27,405 nt of DNA, from positions 1-27,405 of the IMG/VR virus record IMGVR_UViG_3300008267_000941, one strand, 5' to 3'. Shown here piece by piece: positions 8,483 to 26,756 of the stretch. The stretch's first letter is position 1, and each line of letters starts with the position of its first letter. A model generated the notes under the pieces. It was given only the letters and a program-made list of their open reading frames with translations, was not told where the DNA came from and ran no database searches. The DNA comes from a virus. A program made the translations under genes and the position numbers.

Positions 8483-8830
8483 ATGAAAACAGATTTTTTA
8501 AAAAAGTTAATTAAAGAAGCAGTTCGTGAAGCAATTCAAGAAGAAATTAAAGATATACTCCTTGAAGCAGTACGTACTCCTAAAACTGTAGTTAATGAAA
8601 ATGCTAACCCTATTCCTTATACTACTAAAACAACCCCCATCAACCCAGATATTAAACGTAATTTACGCAGTATGATTGGAGGTGAATTTGATGCTACTAT
8701 AACAGCTAATTCATCACATGCTCAACCTGCCTATACACCTCCTCCTGTTAGTACAGTAGGTGAAGGTTCAAGTTTACCTGGTGGTGAAGTAAGTTTAAAT
8801 CAAATAATGGGATTAATGAGTACTAAATAA
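8483..8830 (+). CDS. Unknown protein preceding gp25
   Basis: The 115-residue product begins with a strongly amphipathic helix (FLKKLIKEAVREAIQEEIKD, about 5-24), then becomes proline- and threonine-rich and probably disordered (TTPINPD, PAYTPPPVS). It ends with a short helical motif SLNQIMGLMSTK. There is no catalytic motif. Its stop overlaps the gp25 start by one base, so it is likely translated together with the baseplate wedge proteins. It may be an assembly factor or a small wedge component. I do not recognise the family. Confidence 0.65.
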   Translation: MKTDFLKKLIKEAVREAIQEEIKDILLEAVRTPKTVVNENANPIPYTTKTTPINPDIKRNLRSMIGGEFDATITANSSHAQPAYTPPPVSTVGEGSSLPGGEVSLNQIMGLMSTK

Positions 8831-9231
8831 TGGCTATTAGAGTAACAAATAAAAGTGCCTTAGAAACTAGTAAAAGAGTAGCTATTGGAGTAGCTATACC
8901 TTTTAGTTCTACTGATGTATTTAAATTAAATTATACAACAATAGATCAAATGAAATCTAATATAGTTAATTTTATATTAACAAATAAAGGAGAACGTGTA
9001 TTAAACCCTAATTTTGGTTCTAATCTAAGAGAATTTTTATTTGAAGATATAAATGAATCTACTTTAAAAGCTTTAGAAATTAAATTAACTAATGATATTC
9101 AAAATAATTTTCCTAATGTTACTATAAATTCATTAACATTAAATCCATTACAAGACGATAATACTATTCAGTTATCTTTAAGTTTATCTGTATATAATGG
9201 AGATATTCAAACCATCCAAATATTATTATAA
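8830..9231 (+). CDS. gp25/W-like baseplate wedge protein
   Basis: The 133-residue length is typical for T4 gp25 and P2 gpW. The family core TNKGERVLNPNFGSNLREFL (51-70) followed by FED is clear: GER near 54-56, the P-x-FGS turn, and the leucine-rich LREFLFE helix. The C-terminal half has the alternating beta pattern TINSLTLNPLQDDNTIQLSL that completes the fold. In contractile tails this protein joins the inner baseplate and sheath, and despite the name gp25-like lysozyme it is structural. It overlaps the preceding gene by one base and the gp6-like gene by one base. Confidence 0.9.
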   Translation: MAIRVTNKSALETSKRVAIGVAIPFSSTDVFKLNYTTIDQMKSNIVNFILTNKGERVLNPNFGSNLREFLFEDINESTLKALEIKLTNDIQNNFPNVTINSLTLNPLQDDNTIQLSLSLSVYNGDIQTIQILL

Positions 9232-11057
9232 TGGCAGCTGAAAATAGAGATATAAAATATTTAAATAAAGATTTTGGGGATTTTAAAGTATCTTTAACTG
9301 ATTATGCTCGAACATACTACCCTAATACTATAACAGATTTTTCCCCTGCTTCCCCAGGAATGCTGTTTTTAGAAATGTCAGCTTATGTAGGTGATGTTTT
9401 ATCATTTTATCTTGATAATCAAATTCAAGAAACATTTGCTCAATATGCTAGACAAGAAAGTAATCTTTATTCTCTAGCTTATATGTTAGGTTATAAACCT
9501 AAAGTAACAGGAGCTGCTACAGCTACAGTTGATTTTTATCAAAAAGTCCCAGCTACTGCTGGTGAACCTGATTATAGTTATGCTTTATCAATAGCTGCTA
9601 ATACATCTCTATCAGCTAATGCTGCTACATTTTTACTTAAAGATACAGTTGATTTTTCAGTTAACACTCCTTCTGATCCTACAAATGTTAGTGTTTTAAC
9701 CTTAATTGGTTCAACACCAGCTTATTTTCTTCTCAAAAAATCTCGAACAGTCACATCAGCTACTATTGTGACAAAAACTTTTTCATTTACTACCCCCCAA
9801 CGCTTTCAAACTATTGAAATTAATGATTCTAATATTATCCAAATTTTAGATATCACAGATAGTGAAGGTAATAAATGGTATGAGGTACCATATTTAGCCC
9901 AAGAGATGTATATGGAAGGCATAGCTAATACTGCTGGGGATTCTGGGGAGGTGCCTTATTTATTACAATTAAAAAAAATACCTAGAAGATTTGTATCTCG
10001 ATTTTTATCTCCATCTACCCTACAAATCCAATTTGGAGCTGGTACTACTACAGCTAATGTTGAAGAACAAATAATTCCTAACCCAACTAATATAGGTTCA
10101 TCCTTAACAGGAAATACTGAAGAATTCCAATATGTAGCTTTTGATCCAGCTAATTTTTTATTCACTAGCACATATGGTATAGCTCCATCTAATACTACTC
10201 TAACAATTAGATATTTAATTGGTGGAGGTATAGCAGCCAATGTACCAGCTAATTCCATTAATTCAATAGTAGATCTAAGTAATGTAACATTTGTTGGAAC
10301 AGCCCTTGATAGTGTGATAAGAAAAGATGTTTTAGGTTCATTAGCTATAACTAATACAACATCAGCTACTGGTGGATCAGATGGAGATACTTTAGATGAA
10401 ATAAGATTTAATTCTTTAGGTGTATTTGGGGCCCAATTAAGAACAGTAACCCAAGCTGATTATATTGTTAGGGCTTTAAGTTTACCTTCTCAATATGGAT
10501 CAATAGCTAAAGTATATGCTGAACCAGAAAAACTAGAAAATTTACTCCCTGGAGAATCTTTATCAGCTACAAATTTATATGTGTTAGCATATGATAGTAG
10601 TAAGAAATTAAAATATGCTTCAACTACTTTAAAAGATAATTTAAAAACATATCTTTCTCAATATAGAATGGTTAATGATTCTATTAAAATAAAAGATGGG
10701 TATATTATTAATATTAGTGTTGATTTTGATATAGTTGTATTACCTAATAGTAATAGTAATGATGTTTTATTTAGATGTATAACTGCTTTAAAAGATTATT
10801 TTAATATAGAAAATTGGCAAATGAATGAACCAATTTTATTAAAAGATATAGCTGTACTTTTAGATAAAATAGATGGAGTCCAAACAGTTAAAGATGTTAG
10901 AGTCACTAATTTAGTTGGAGGTGATAGATATTCTTCCTGGGCTTACGATATTCCAGGTGCCACTACAGGTAACGTGGTTTACCCCTCAGTTGACCCAATG
11001 GTTTTTGAAGTTAAATACCCTGATAGTGACATCAGAGGTCGTGTTGTATCTTTTTAA
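9231..11057 (+). CDS. gp6/J-like baseplate wedge protein
   Basis: The 608-residue protein has the baseplate J features. The N-terminal part is DFGDFKVSLTDYARTYYPNT, then DFSPASPGMLFLEMSAYVGD and VLSFYLDNQIQETF (about 14-65). A long beta-rich middle follows, and then the conserved block DGDTLDEIRFNSLGVFGAQL plus RTVTQADYIVRAL (about 383-417). The C-terminus has VDFDIVVLPNSN and DIAVLLDKIDGVQTVKDVRV, as expected for the family. It forms the dimeric backbone of the wedge and contacts gp25 and the next wedge protein. T4 gp6 is 660 residues, so the length fits. The last 140 bases are slightly richer in C and G than the body. Confidence 0.9.
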   Translation: MAAENRDIKYLNKDFGDFKVSLTDYARTYYPNTITDFSPASPGMLFLEMSAYVGDVLSFYLDNQIQETFAQYARQESNLYSLAYMLGYKPKVTGAATATVDFYQKVPATAGEPDYSYALSIAANTSLSANAATFLLKDTVDFSVNTPSDPTNVSVLTLIGSTPAYFLLKKSRTVTSATIVTKTFSFTTPQRFQTIEINDSNIIQILDITDSEGNKWYEVPYLAQEMYMEGIANTAGDSGEVPYLLQLKKIPRRFVSRFLSPSTLQIQFGAGTTTANVEEQIIPNPTNIGSSLTGNTEEFQYVAFDPANFLFTSTYGIAPSNTTLTIRYLIGGGIAANVPANSINSIVDLSNVTFVGTALDSVIRKDVLGSLAITNTTSATGGSDGDTLDEIRFNSLGVFGAQLRTVTQADYIVRALSLPSQYGSIAKVYAEPEKLENLLPGESLSATNLYVLAYDSSKKLKYASTTLKDNLKTYLSQYRMVNDSIKIKDGYIINISVDFDIVVLPNSNSNDVLFRCITALKDYFNIENWQMNEPILLKDIAVLLDKIDGVQTVKDVRVTNLVGGDRYSSWAYDIPGATTGNVVYPSVDPMVFEVKYPDSDIRGRVVSF

Positions 11058-21065: not shown

Positions 21066-21542
21066 ATGAATAATTGGTTTTGGTATGAAAATGTGGAAGT
21101 TAAAGAATTTAAAACAATAGAAGACTTCCCACAAGATTGTTTTGGTTTTATCTATGAAATCAAAAATACAATAACAGGTAAATTTTACATTGGTAAAAAA
21201 AGTCTTTACCATAACATAAAGAAAAAACTTACTAAAAAAGAACTAGCTGAACAATCAGGTCCTGGTAGAAAAGCAACTACTAAAAGAGTACAAAAAGAAT
21301 CTGATTGGGCTACATATTGGGGTTCTAATAAAGAAATACTTGCTGAAATAAAAACAAGCGGTAACTTAGCATTCACTAGACAAATCATTAAAATGGTAAG
21401 AACTAAAAAAGAACTTACCTATTGGGAAACTGCTTATCAATGTAAATATAATGTATTATTTGTAAATAGTTACAATGATAATGTATTAGGTAAGTTTTTT
21501 AAGAAAGACTTTGCTCCTAACGCTCTCCTCCATACATTATAA
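21066..21542 (+). CDS. GIY-YIG-like nuclease family protein
   Basis: The 158-residue product begins with a GIY-YIG-type core: FGFIYEIKNTITGKFYIGKK (26-45), with Y30 and Y41-I42-G43 in the places of the two signature motifs. A basic region rich in K and R follows (about 51-76), then SDWATYWGSNKEI (about 78-90). The family acid is a likely E120 (in TYWETAYQ), with a following N136 (VNSYNDN); their spacing is close to that of the catalytic Glu and Asn in I-TevI. Such proteins are annotated as Seg-like or homing endonucleases in T4-like phages. The lack of a clear DNA-recognition tail leaves free mobility uncertain. The activity is inferred from motifs. Confidence 0.7.
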   Translation: MNNWFWYENVEVKEFKTIEDFPQDCFGFIYEIKNTITGKFYIGKKSLYHNIKKKLTKKELAEQSGPGRKATTKRVQKESDWATYWGSNKEILAEIKTSGNLAFTRQIIKMVRTKKELTYWETAYQCKYNVLFVNSYNDNVLGKFFKKDFAPNALLHTL

Positions 21543-22478: not shown

Positions 22479-23284
22479 TTGAAAAAAATGTTCATGTCTA
22501 TAAAAAAAGTGTTACTCGTATTTTAGATATAGACCCTACATCTAAAAGAGTTAGTATTTTAGATAATCGATTCTATAGTCGAAACCAAGACTACTACCCC
22601 TCAGTAACAAGCATATTGCAATTTATGCCTAAAGGTAAGTTTTTTGAAACTTGGCTTAAAGATGTAGGACATAATGCTGATGTTATAGCTAGAAAAGCTG
22701 CTGATGAAGGTACTCAAGTACATGATGCTATTGAAAAATACCTTAAAGGAGAAAAAATTCAATGGTTAAATGAAGAAGGATATTCTAATTACTCTATGGA
22801 TGTTTGGAAATTAATTCTTAAATTCCATGACTTTTGGACAACTTATAAACCCACTTTGATTGAAAGTGAAATCCACCTATTCTCAGATCAATATAAATAC
22901 GCTGGAACATGCGACTTAGTTGTTGAAATTGATAATGTTAGATGGTTATTAGATATTAAAACTTCAAATTCAATCCATACATCTATGGATTTACAATTAG
23001 CAGCTTATGCTCAAGCCTGGAATGAAACATTTGAAGAAAAAATAGAAAAAACAGGTATTATCTGGTTAAAATCTTCTAAACGTGGTGAAGGTAAAGGAGA
23101 TAAAATTCAAGGTAAAGGATGGGAAATATATGAGCCAACACGTACTTTTGAAGAAAACTTAAAATTATTTAATTCTATACATGAGTTATTTAAACTTGAG
23201 TATCCTAACCCAAAACCATCTTCTGAACAATTTCCTATTGAGATTCAACTAGACCCTAATATTTATGAGAAAACTCAAGGATGA
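22475..23284 (+). CDS. PD-(D/E)XK nuclease, RecB/Cas4-like
   Basis: The 269-residue protein carries the RecB-type motifs in order. These are EGTQVHDAIEKYLKG (78-92, with H83), an E near 130-132, and AGTCDLVV (143-150, with D147). Then come WLLDIKTSNS (157-166, with the D160-I-K162 catalytic pair) and QLAAYAQAW (174-182), the Q..Y motif. These are the metal-binding and DNA-contact residues of exonucleases in this superfamily. A cysteine cluster as in Cas4 is absent. The gene is joined by ATGA overlaps to the primase before it and to the nucleotidyltransferase-like gene after it, which suggests a replication or recombination role. The preferred substrate cannot be told from the sequence. Confidence 0.85.
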   Translation: MIEKNVHVYKKSVTRILDIDPTSKRVSILDNRFYSRNQDYYPSVTSILQFMPKGKFFETWLKDVGHNADVIARKAADEGTQVHDAIEKYLKGEKIQWLNEEGYSNYSMDVWKLILKFHDFWTTYKPTLIESEIHLFSDQYKYAGTCDLVVEIDNVRWLLDIKTSNSIHTSMDLQLAAYAQAWNETFEEKIEKTGIIWLKSSKRGEGKGDKIQGKGWEIYEPTRTFEENLKLFNSIHELFKLEYPNPKPSSEQFPIEIQLDPNIYEKTQG

Positions 23285-24195
23285 TTTCTTTAATAAAGCT
23301 ACTGCGTGAGGTTCTTATTGACGAAGGTGGAAATGTGTTTAAAGGTACAGAATTTGATGCCCAAGATATAGTATTAGATAATATTAAACCTACAATTGAA
23401 AAATTTGTTAGTGATTTAAGTAAAATTTTTCCTAACAAAAAATCAACATTAACCCCATTAACTGATAAAAGTAACTGGTTAGGATCAACTGGTAGTAAAC
23501 CTAAATCAGGAGATGTTGATTTAGCTTACTCATCAGAATATCTGTTTAAAGATGGAAAAGCTGATACTGATGGTTGGGGTATTAATCAAAATGAATATGA
23601 TTCTTTATATGAAAAATTAAAGAAATCATCTCGTACAGCTACTGATGAAGCAATTCAAACTAATGCTTTAATACGTTTAATTGTTAATAAAATTAATAGT
23701 ACTGGAGGTGATATACATGCTAGTGATAAAGCAGCAAATGGAGGAACAATCCACTTTTCATATCCTCAATACACTCCATCTGGAGAAAAATTAGACTTAA
23801 GAGCTCAACTTGATATAGATACAGGAGATATGGACTGGTTAAAATTCAGATACAATTCTGAATTGCCTGAAGATAATCCTGAAATTAAAGGTCTACATAG
23901 AGGACAATTAATGTTAGCTATGTTTGCTGCTACAGGTTATACTTTTAAAAGTGGTAGAGGATTTATACGTAAAGATACAGGTGATGTTATCGCTGATAAA
24001 CCCCAAGGTGCTTTAGAAGTATTTAATCAAGAATACCAACCATCACAGCCATTAACTTTAGAGACAATTAATAATTATGATAAGTTAATGAGTTATATTA
24101 AAACTAATCTTAAACCTGAGGACAAAACTAAAGCGTTAGATTTATTTAAAGAAGCTTTACGTAGAGCTAATGCTTATGTTCCTGATAATATTTAA
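23281..24195 (+). CDS. Pol-beta-type nucleotidyltransferase-like protein
   Basis: The 304-residue protein has the signature of the Pol-beta nucleotidyltransferase fold near residues 67-82: LGSTGSKPKSGDVDLA. The GS pair is followed about nine residues later by the D78-x-D80 metal-binding acids. An acid further on in the LDLRAQLDID stretch (about 171-180) could be the third carboxylate. The C-terminal half is helical with HRGQLMLAMFAATGYTFKSG (about 206-225). Family members transfer nucleotides to RNA, proteins or small molecules; the substrate is not evident. The gene overlaps the PD-(D/E)XK gene by four bases, and the 851-residue protein with a second such motif follows after five. The two probably work together, which is inference. 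Confidence 0.65.
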   Translation: MISLIKLLREVLIDEGGNVFKGTEFDAQDIVLDNIKPTIEKFVSDLSKIFPNKKSTLTPLTDKSNWLGSTGSKPKSGDVDLAYSSEYLFKDGKADTDGWGINQNEYDSLYEKLKKSSRTATDEAIQTNALIRLIVNKINSTGGDIHASDKAANGGTIHFSYPQYTPSGEKLDLRAQLDIDTGDMDWLKFRYNSELPEDNPEIKGLHRGQLMLAMFAATGYTFKSGRGFIRKDTGDVIADKPQGALEVFNQEYQPSQPLTLETINNYDKLMSYIKTNLKPEDKTKALDLFKEALRRANAYVPDNI

Positions 24196-24200
24196 TTACT

Positions 24201-26756
24201 ATGAGTGGAGCAGCGGGTGGTGTCACCATTAATAAAGAAAATTTAAAAGACACAATACGTGATTATAGAGATACTGTCTTAAAACCATTAGGATTAGATA
24301 AATCTTATAATATCACTGGAGTTCGTTCTAGACCTGAAAAAAATACTTTTGGAGATATTGATATAATTATATCCTTTCCTGGAGGTGATAAAAAAGAACT
24401 TAAACTACAATTAGCTCAATTTATAAAACAAATAGAGAAAATCCCAGAAATCCCTCATAAAAAAAATAAAAAATATTTTATACATGGTAATATAGTTTCT
24501 ATTCTATATCCGATAACTGGTAAAGAAAATGAATATGTTCAAATAGATAATGTTGTGACATCATCTGAAGATGAAGGCAAATTCACATACAAAATGTTAG
24601 ATTTACCCGCTCAAGAGCAAGGTTTAGCTTTAGGTTTAGCTAAAGCTATATTCACAGAATTAGATGAAAAACAAATAGAAACTCTATTTAAAAATTTAAA
24701 CATTCCATCAAATATTGAAAAACCTGGTGAGGGAGAAGAATATGACTTTAATTTGAATACATCAGAATTATCTTTAAGAATTGTTCCTATAGGTAAAAAC
24801 AATGGTAGAGAAATATGGAAATCTAATAAGTTTTCTGATATTAAAATATTACTTGCTTCTTTAGGTGTTGATATTGAAAAAGATAAGTTTGAGACTATAC
24901 TTGAAAAAATTAAAAAATTTAAAAATAGAAGATCAATAGATAGACTTAAAGGAATGTTTGCTACAAACATTCGAGTTGGTGATACTGAAATTACAAGAGA
25001 AAAAGGTATTAAAAAACAACAATCACTAGATACTGTAGCTGCTTTAGAAGGTAAATATAGTCCATTAGTAATGAGTTTAATTAAACCATTTATTGAAGGT
25101 GAAACTATAATTGTAGAAGACGAAAACCAATCTAAAAAAGTAATAGCAGTATTCCCAGGTAAATTTAAACCACCTCATAAAGATCATATATCTCGAATTA
25201 AAGCCGCAGCTAATGATGCTGATGAAGTACTTGTTATAATATCAACAAAAACAGAGCCAGGTGGTGCTCCTAAAACTAAAAAAGAAAAAGAAAAACTTGA
25301 AAATAGATTAGGTACAGAAATGCCTATAACAGTTGATCAAAGTTTAGAAGTTTTTAAATCACTTAATCTTCCATCTAATGTTAAAGTAATAACATCAACA
25401 GATTCTTCTCTTCCTGTTCCCTTACCAAGTCCTGTAGCAGCAGCTTATGAATTATTTAAAAATAATCCTGATCAACAATATATAGGAGTATTTGGGAAAG
25501 AAGAAGATTTTGTTAGATTTGGAGACACTCCTTCAAATGTGACTATTAAAAATTATGATGGATCAGCTGGGAATTTAAGTGCTACTGATTTAAGAGTAGC
25601 GCTAAAAAATAACCAAGATATAACTTCTTTTCTACCAGATGGAATTACTTCAGATGGATATAAACAAGCTTTAGGTTTAGATGTAGTTCAAGAAGATAAA
25701 GAAATTACAACTTGGGTTGAAGAAAAAATAGATAATGAAGAATTAGATATAGATACAACTGGTGTGTTAGATGATACTGATATTATTATATCTAAACATG
25801 TCAAAGATAGAGCAAAAGAAAGAAACATTAGCGCAAATGATATTGAAAAATTCTTTCAACATCTAAAACAAGATTCTGAAGCTAATGATGAACTTAAAAT
25901 AGATTTGCAATATAATAATGCAGTCGCGTCTGATCTTAATAAAACAAAATCAAAACCAAACCCAACAAATATCAATATCCCACTTTCAAAAATTAAAAAC
26001 AACCAGACTGTAGCTACTACAATAATGAAAGGTAAAAATTTTATACCTAATAACGTTAGAGAACCTAAAATAGTATTTGAAAAAATTCAAGGTGATAGTA
26101 TAGTTTGTGATGATTGTGGTTGGACATGGGAAATAGAAGATGGAGGAAATGATTTATATATCTGTCATAAATGCGGACATGATAATACTCCTCAACAATC
26201 TTCTTCTAATAATTTCTTTGAACCTTTACAAAATCAAGATTTAAATTTAAATACATCTTCAACTTCAAATAGAGTTGATTACTATAAAGATCATATTAAA
26301 AATGTAGTACCATCTGATTTTAAGGTTGACAAACATAAAGATAAAATTGTTGTATCTAACATTACTAAAAAGGGATTAGAACATAATTCTGAATTTAGAG
26401 ATAATTTAATATCACTAACTATGTTTATGATAGATAATGATTTAAATATAGAACCATTACCTAATATAGAATTTATTGAAGATGATAAAGAAAACGCTAA
26501 TAATATGCTAGGACGCACAGCCCATTATGATCCCAATAAACAATGTGTTACTTTATATACTTATGGTAGACATCCAAAAGATATATTACGATCATATGCT
26601 CATGAAATGATCCACCATAAACAAAATTTAGAAGATAGACTTCAACATTATGATGGAACAAATATCAATGAAGATGATCATTTAAAGCAATTAGAAATCG
26701 AAGCTTACAGAGATGGAAATATTTATTTCCGTAGCTGGGAAAATTCAAAAAATTAA
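24201..26756 (+). CDS. Composite protein: two nucleotidyltransferase modules, zinc ribbon, HExxH peptidase-like end
   Basis: The 851-residue protein combines several modules. Residues about 30-130 resemble a Pol-beta-type nucleotidyltransferase, with FGDIDIIISF (50-59, D52 and D54). Residues about 313-480 have the HIGH-type signature of adenylyl/cytidylyltransferases: VFPGKFKPPHKDHI (317-330, H326 and H329) and later SATDLR (460-465), resembling the S-S/T-x-x-R motif. HVKDRAKERNIS (533-544) is a further conserved-looking patch. A zinc ribbon is formed by C636-x2-C639 and C655-x2-C658. The C-terminal part ends with AHEMIHHKQNL (800-810), the HExxH zinc site, and IEAYRDGN (833-840), whose E834 may be the third ligand. 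This is a very unusual fusion. I see no signal peptide or frameshift. NAD-related or protein-modifying roles are possible, but the function is not known. Confidence 0.7.
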   Translation: MSGAAGGVTINKENLKDTIRDYRDTVLKPLGLDKSYNITGVRSRPEKNTFGDIDIIISFPGGDKKELKLQLAQFIKQIEKIPEIPHKKNKKYFIHGNIVSILYPITGKENEYVQIDNVVTSSEDEGKFTYKMLDLPAQEQGLALGLAKAIFTELDEKQIETLFKNLNIPSNIEKPGEGEEYDFNLNTSELSLRIVPIGKNNGREIWKSNKFSDIKILLASLGVDIEKDKFETILEKIKKFKNRRSIDRLKGMFATNIRVGDTEITREKGIKKQQSLDTVAALEGKYSPLVMSLIKPFIEGETIIVEDENQSKKVIAVFPGKFKPPHKDHISRIKAAANDADEVLVIISTKTEPGGAPKTKKEKEKLENRLGTEMPITVDQSLEVFKSLNLPSNVKVITSTDSSLPVPLPSPVAAAYELFKNNPDQQYIGVFGKEEDFVRFGDTPSNVTIKNYDGSAGNLSATDLRVALKNNQDITSFLPDGITSDGYKQALGLDVVQEDKEITTWVEEKIDNEELDIDTTGVLDDTDIIISKHVKDRAKERNISANDIEKFFQHLKQDSEANDELKIDLQYNNAVASDLNKTKSKPNPTNINIPLSKIKNNQTVATTIMKGKNFIPNNVREPKIVFEKIQGDSIVCDDCGWTWEIEDGGNDLYICHKCGHDNTPQQSSSNNFFEPLQNQDLNLNTSSTSNRVDYYKDHIKNVVPSDFKVDKHKDKIVVSNITKKGLEHNSEFRDNLISLTMFMIDNDLNIEPLPNIEFIEDDKENANNMLGRTAHYDPNKQCVTLYTYGRHPKDILRSYAHEMIHHKQNLEDRLQHYDGTNINEDDHLKQLEIEAYRDGNIYFRSWENSKN

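Follow-up and report, generated by a model that had tools for sequence, protein, structure and literature searches.

A multidomain phage chain with a zincin fold and prohead-protease-like motifs at its module joints: a candidate head-packaged polyprotein

The virus record IMGVR_UViG_3300008267_000941 (27,405 bases, referred to as the window), across which the genes are closely packed on the + strand, encodes at positions 24201..26756 (+) an 851-residue chain that joins nucleotidyltransferase modules to a C-terminal HExxH motif. This raises the question of what kind of enzyme the motif belongs to and how such a chain would be used by the phage. The first-pass annotation proposed a peptidase of the gluzincin type, associated with a zinc ribbon, in a virion-borne or self-processing enzyme.

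The full-length model of the chain has a mean pLDDT of 66 and was therefore read domain by domain only. Residues 1 to 288 (24201..25064; this and all following features of the chain are on the + strand) form a Pol-beta-superfamily nucleotidyltransferase module with a GDIDI motif, which matched DNA polymerase beta in a Foldseek search with the full-length model (E = 3.4e-5) and, weakly, NTP_transf_2 of Pfam (E = 0.021). The module is followed by an internal leader-like stretch, LVMSLIKPFIE (residues 289 to 299, 25065..25097), at which the chains of relatives begin with Met (MKSLVKSLITPFLSE). Residues 314 to 495 (25140..25685) form a HIGH-superfamily nucleotidyltransferase resembling NMNAT/NadD, with the motifs PPHKDH and LSATDLR, as indicated by PHROG 3462 (E = 1.5e-6) and by a Foldseek match of the full-length model to NadD (E = 8.7e-6). 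The peptidase is thus fused to two nucleotidyltransferases, as had been claimed, i.e., one Pol-beta-like and one HIGH/NMNAT-like according to the structure matches. A low-confidence joint (residues 495 to 525, 25683..25775, pLDDT <50) contains the candidate cuts VVQE (498) and WVEE (508), and INE, IKE or LHE is located at the same place in aligned relatives. The next module (residues 526 to 616, 25776..26048) is DUF4258-like by a weak Pfam match below the cut-off (E = 0.018), and a related stand-alone gene is present in locus L017. A second low-confidence joint with KIVFE at 627 (residues 617 to 631, 26049..26093), a zinc ribbon with CDDC and CHKC (residues 632 to 663, 26094..26189) and a linker (residues 664 to 724, 26190..26372, pLDDT <50) precede the zincin metallopeptidase domain, which occupies the ~127 C-terminal residues (725 to 851, 26373..26753).

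The translation of 24201-26753 contains the motifs as originally read: CDDC at 636-639, CHKC at 655-658, HEMIHHKQ at 801-808 and EIEAY at 832-836. An HExxH arises by chance in 2.6% of shuffles of the 851-residue chain. A 90-residue peptidase query of IMG/VR identified 142 related loci that encode the domain, of which 80 were kept, and HEMIHH and E-x-E-A are present in all chains examined. In an alignment of the window sequence with 39 relatives, whose identities range as low as 46%, His801, Glu802, His805, His806, Glu832, Glu834 and Ala835 are invariant in 40 of 40 sequences, which covers both the HEMIHH active-site motif (residues 801 to 806, 26601..26618) and E-x-E-A (residues 832 to 835, 26694..26705); loss of HExxH in most homologues, named beforehand as grounds against a peptidase, is the opposite of what is seen. 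Comparison with the closest ortholog, that of locus L009, which aligns over residues 1 to 849 with 72% identity, indicates purifying selection around the motif (dN = 0.113, dS = 0.749, dN/dS of about 0.15).

The AlphaFold2 model of the zincin domain, built from 39 sequences (pLDDT = 86.3), takes the order helix, strand, short helix, two strands, HExxH helix and Glu helix, with E-x-E-A on the helix that follows the HExxH helix (model helix 118-142). Almost all of its VIA-align matches are zincin metallopeptidases, including Wss1 (Z-score = 8.9), ERAP1 (8.0), PprI (7.2), SPRTN-type DPC-repair proteases (6.5) and ArdC (6.2). The model supports a zincin fold that carries a gluzincin-type motif, and its topology and fold matches are compatible with the closeness of His801, His805 and Glu834 that such a site would require; the third zinc ligand would be either Glu832 or Glu834, both of which are invariant. 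Foldseek returned no solved structure for this model under an E-value of 0.001 (the best was IrrE, 0.009), while predicted viral-protein structures matched it down to E = 6e-13, most of them without function names. Among 40 members, Pfam gave weak matches only, i.e., M91 in 26, DUF6782 in 20 and MPTase-PolyVal in 10 (best E = 0.003); the window zincin itself was not matched by MPTase-PolyVal. Assignment to Peptidase M91 (PF14891) was rejected, with 17.9 bits against a Pfam gathering cut-off of 25. The profile search proposed for the HEMIHH domain was thus informative in that its commonest weak Pfam matches point to zincins, but sequence searches of Pfam, PHROG and PDB gave no secure family name. 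The modelled structure gives good support for a zincin fold, but the domain cannot be placed securely in a named family; it appears to belong to a common aquatic family that existing family models match weakly.

The zinc ribbon is real as a pair of CxxC motifs, but its proposed association with the peptidase did not hold. It is present in about 34 of the 72 distinct chains, before or after the peptidase, and the L009 ortholog has no CxxC pair; the ribbon is therefore a separate, mobile module, and a role as part of the peptidase was ruled out on the same grounds.

By a simple motif key, the 72 distinct chains fall into about 41 architectures in which the fusion partners vary and the zincin is constant. 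Further modules in the chains are a second HExxH (HELEHLT), a HAD module resembling 5'-nucleotidase and an ART-like module. The second HExxH module, HE[LI]EHLT followed by KEVDA, occurs besides the first zincin at L001:14071-14724 and in L035, L046, L057 and L076; gp088 of the Flavobacterium phage immuto is among these chains. In some phages this 5'-nucleotidase-like module stands alone as a gene with its own leader (MIKLTDLLKEVE), and in others it is located at the C-terminus of a chain. Nucleotidase and nucleotidyltransferase modules are also found as separate neighboring genes, and the Pol-beta nucleotidyltransferase is a stand-alone gene in L064.

In an all-against-all comparison of the ORFs of the loci, positions at which similarity ended within both chains were taken as module ends. 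In the zincin-bearing chains, [LI]-x-E lies at 89 of 186 distinct module ends (within -8 to +4 residues), as against 25.8 +/- 4.6 at random points in the same chains, and the non-zincin proteins of the same loci are also enriched (29 of 83 versus 13.9); because related sequences are not independent, these figures exaggerate how many separate events took place. LxD, LxK, Lx[QN] and LxS showed no enrichment at the module ends of the zincin-bearing chains. Across the full set, alignments end on the Glu itself more often than at any other position (44 of 265). Since 82 joint motifs are encoded by 47 distinct DNA 9-mers, it is the peptide and not the DNA that is conserved at the joints, and a DNA-level recombination site as the source of the motif was disfavored for this reason. 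The prohead protease of T4, gp21, is known to cleave at L/I-x-E (PMC9026906). The joints of the window chain (FIE at 299, IVE at 306, VQE at 498 and VFE at 627) fit a relaxed form of this rule, although only IVE is a strict L/I-x-E; 8 of its 13 hydrophobic-x-E sites lie in low-confidence stretches, compared with 20 of 66 Glu residues overall (p of about 0.01).

The same motif closes the leaders. Where the start of a zincin chain is complete, the chain usually opens with a capsid-targeting-like leader of 12 to 16 residues, such as MNQLTKHLVDGILNE or MKSLVKSLITPFLSE, that ends in L/I-x-E. Its form resembles that of the T4 capsid targeting sequence; in T4 IPIII, ten N-terminal residues are enough for head incorporation, and residues 8 and 10 govern processing (PMC9026906). 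In the window chain the leader-like stretch is internal, with the Pol-beta nucleotidyltransferase fused ahead of it; it lies where relatives start and ends in FIE/IVE, and this nucleotidyltransferase-fused form has no leader at its N-terminus. In two related genomes, N-terminal leaders are common to unrelated genes (14 and 18 pairs at a value of at least 45, versus 0 internal), and over the whole genome of one relative N-terminal L/I-x-E is only mildly raised (46 versus 35.6 +/- 4.4), so that the leader comparison was the sharper test. Leaders that recur on unrelated genes in G001 (L104-L112) and immuto (L083-L085) include MKKSELKQIIKEEI..LNE, MNKEFLKMQKLAGIITE and MENFDLKKFLVENKLT, and could possibly represent capsid-targeting families. 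A small gene at 8483-8830 of the window, which adjoins baseplate genes, starts with a similar leader, MKTDFLKKLIKEAVREAIQEEIKDILLE.

The window is a fragment that lacks head genes, and the evidence for a protease comes from relatives. In immuto, whose laboratory host is Flavobacterium sp. LMO8, a gene annotated as a prohead core serine protease (gp070) lies between the portal and capsid genes, and the PF03420 prohead protease was detected above the Pfam cut-off in 12 of 15 records of relatives. The N-terminal regions of the capsid proteins of immuto and G001 contain LLE, ILE/MLE and V-x-E sites, which suggests that the protease may tolerate Val at P3; a script found no major capsid protein near the protease in the short loci of other relatives. 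The cultured counterpart of the window chain, immuto gp088 (NC_055915), has nucleotidyltransferase, NMNAT-like and zincin modules in the same gene neighborhood, whereas it lacks the zinc ribbon, has the second HExxH module at its C-terminus and is annotated only as NadR. This label is too specific, because the HIGH nucleotidyltransferase fold is present while Pfam and PHROG scans detected no P-loop kinase family. A literature text search on immuto phages found no virion proteomics. Elsewhere in immuto, gp079 (L001:18876-21401) is an 842-residue chain with repeated LNE/VNE sites and no HEMIHH zincin, and is a candidate second polyprotein.

Upstream of the 851-residue ORF, a gene of 304 residues (23281..24195, +) has a nucleotidyltransferase-like motif, GSTGSKPKSGDVDLA, and a capsid-targeting-like leader, MISLIKLLREVLIDE (23281-23325); its counterpart in immuto, gp089, occupies the same position. 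Baseplate wedge genes are at 8830-11057, and exonuclease and primase genes lie just upstream of the 851-residue ORF, neighbors that need not imply a virion role. Genes for tRNA-Arg(TCT) and tRNA-Met(CAT) lie side by side at 2141-2295. The gene at 21066-21542 is named 'NAD synthetase' after PHROG, but its other matches are homing endonucleases and it has a GFIYEI motif; it looks like a GIY-YIG endonuclease, and the name is probably wrong. The source phage is probably a T4-like aquatic phage, and its host probably belongs to Bacteroidota, as judged from the Flavobacterium phage among the relatives and from two contigs that carry a Flavobacteriales label. These contigs came from a genome-contig scan for a bacterial origin of the zincin, which was rejected: all six matches are short metagenome-assembled contigs, two of them labeled Flavobacteriales, and are thus apparently phage contigs.

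Fusions of this kind are not without precedent, contrary to the first-pass annotation. Phage polyvalent proteins with zincin and Pol-beta nucleotidyltransferase domains were described in 2017 (Iyer et al., PMC5512222); in the accessible text of that paper, zincin MPTases are their commonest domain, Pol-beta nucleotidyltransferases and ARTs also occur, and the MPTase is proposed to act in autoprocessing or on host proteins. The window chain resembles them in having several unrelated enzyme domains, a zincin-like hub, Pol-beta nucleotidyltransferase and ART modules among its family, many architectures and a proposed injection with DNA, and with a Pol-beta nucleotidyltransferase, a HIGH nucleotidyltransferase and a zincin it unites two or more unrelated activities in one chain. 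It differs from what that text describes in the T4-type prohead-protease motif at its joints and in its capsid-targeting-like leaders; T4-type ARTs are not counted there among genuine polyvalent proteins. With most relatives of the window chain, the internal head proteins of T4 (IPI-III and Alt) share the short leader ending in L/I-x-E, a gp21-like protease and presumed delivery with DNA, but they are single proteins trimmed at their ends, whereas here many folded modules would be cut from one chain. DarB and DdrB of phage P1 are likewise large head-packaged proteins (PMC9024508); an N-terminal packaging signal was demonstrated for DarB, and Iyer et al. (PMC5512222) assign a zincin to the C-terminus of DdrB. 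Their modules and phage are different, and no L/I-x-E joints are described in the accessible text. A literature search that left most subscription journals outside its reach found no paper linking L/I-x-E joints and leaders to prohead-protease processing. What is new here is the evidence from joints and leaders, which, as sequence evidence, suggests that the chains of T4-like aquatic phages are processed by the prohead protease; a widespread zincin module, to which current family models give only weak matches, is added as well.

We consider it rather likely that the chain is a packaged polyvalent internal-head protein that is cut by the prohead protease and whose zincin acts after delivery. 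The chain, which links the Pol-beta and NMNAT-like nucleotidyltransferases, the DUF4258-like module, the zinc ribbon and the zincin, would enter the prohead by means of a short capsid-targeting leader; a gp21-like prohead serine protease would cut after (L/I/V/F)-x-E in the flexible joints to give separately folded enzymes; the freed enzymes would exit together with the DNA; and the zincin would, most likely, cut a host protein early in infection. We infer packaging, cleavage and injection, and the activity and target of the zincin, from the observed domains, their conservation and shuffling, the L/I-x-E joints, the leaders and the protease gene of the relatives. The fuller proposal is more tentative, and we hold it at somewhat below an even chance: a bacteriophage polyprotein of interchangeable enzymes, split in the head by the capsid-maturation protease, would let the virion deliver an enzyme kit in which modules bounded by L/I-x-E are swapped.

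A cytoplasmic role is unlikely. The chain might be a non-virion multi-enzyme of NAD and nucleotide metabolism during infection, with the L/I-x-E joints as relics of fused gene starts, as the NMNAT-like and nucleotidase modules, the NadR annotation of immuto gp088 and the upstream primase and exonuclease genes would suggest; this leaves unexplained why gene starts end in a prohead-protease motif and why leaders are common to unrelated genes. The same two neighbors, together with the best structural match to Wss1 and the match to SPRTN-type proteases, would fit a zincin that acts on DNA-protein crosslinks or bound host proteins during phage replication. We regard this as improbable: best Z-scores of 7 to 8 are commonplace and single out no family, no DNA-binding module was identified in the chain, and the partners change while the zincin stays.

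Self-processing, in which the zincin itself would sever the polyvalent chain either ahead of packaging or following injection, accords with the proposal of Iyer et al. (PMC5512222) for polyvalent MPTases and is consistent with a zincin in every chain examined, though the chains were found through the zincin. However, the joint motif has the specificity of the T4 prohead protease, and L/I-x-E leaders and joints are likewise seen in proteins that lack this zincin, such as immuto gp079 and the stand-alone nucleotidase genes, in agreement with the enrichment among non-zincin proteins of the same loci. We therefore judge self-cutting, with the protease's own motif at the module joints, to be less likely than prohead-protease cutting, and quite doubtful in itself. 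Of the two options in the first-pass annotation, the virion-borne one is favored indirectly by the leaders and the joint motif.

If cutting by the prohead protease is correct, polyvalent injected proteins would be joined to T4 head proteolysis by a readable rule, in which modules end and begin at L/I-x-E. The cargo of T4-like phages could then be listed from sequence alone, it would be explained how so long a chain fits into and leaves the head, and a prediction that is testable in a cultured phage would follow.
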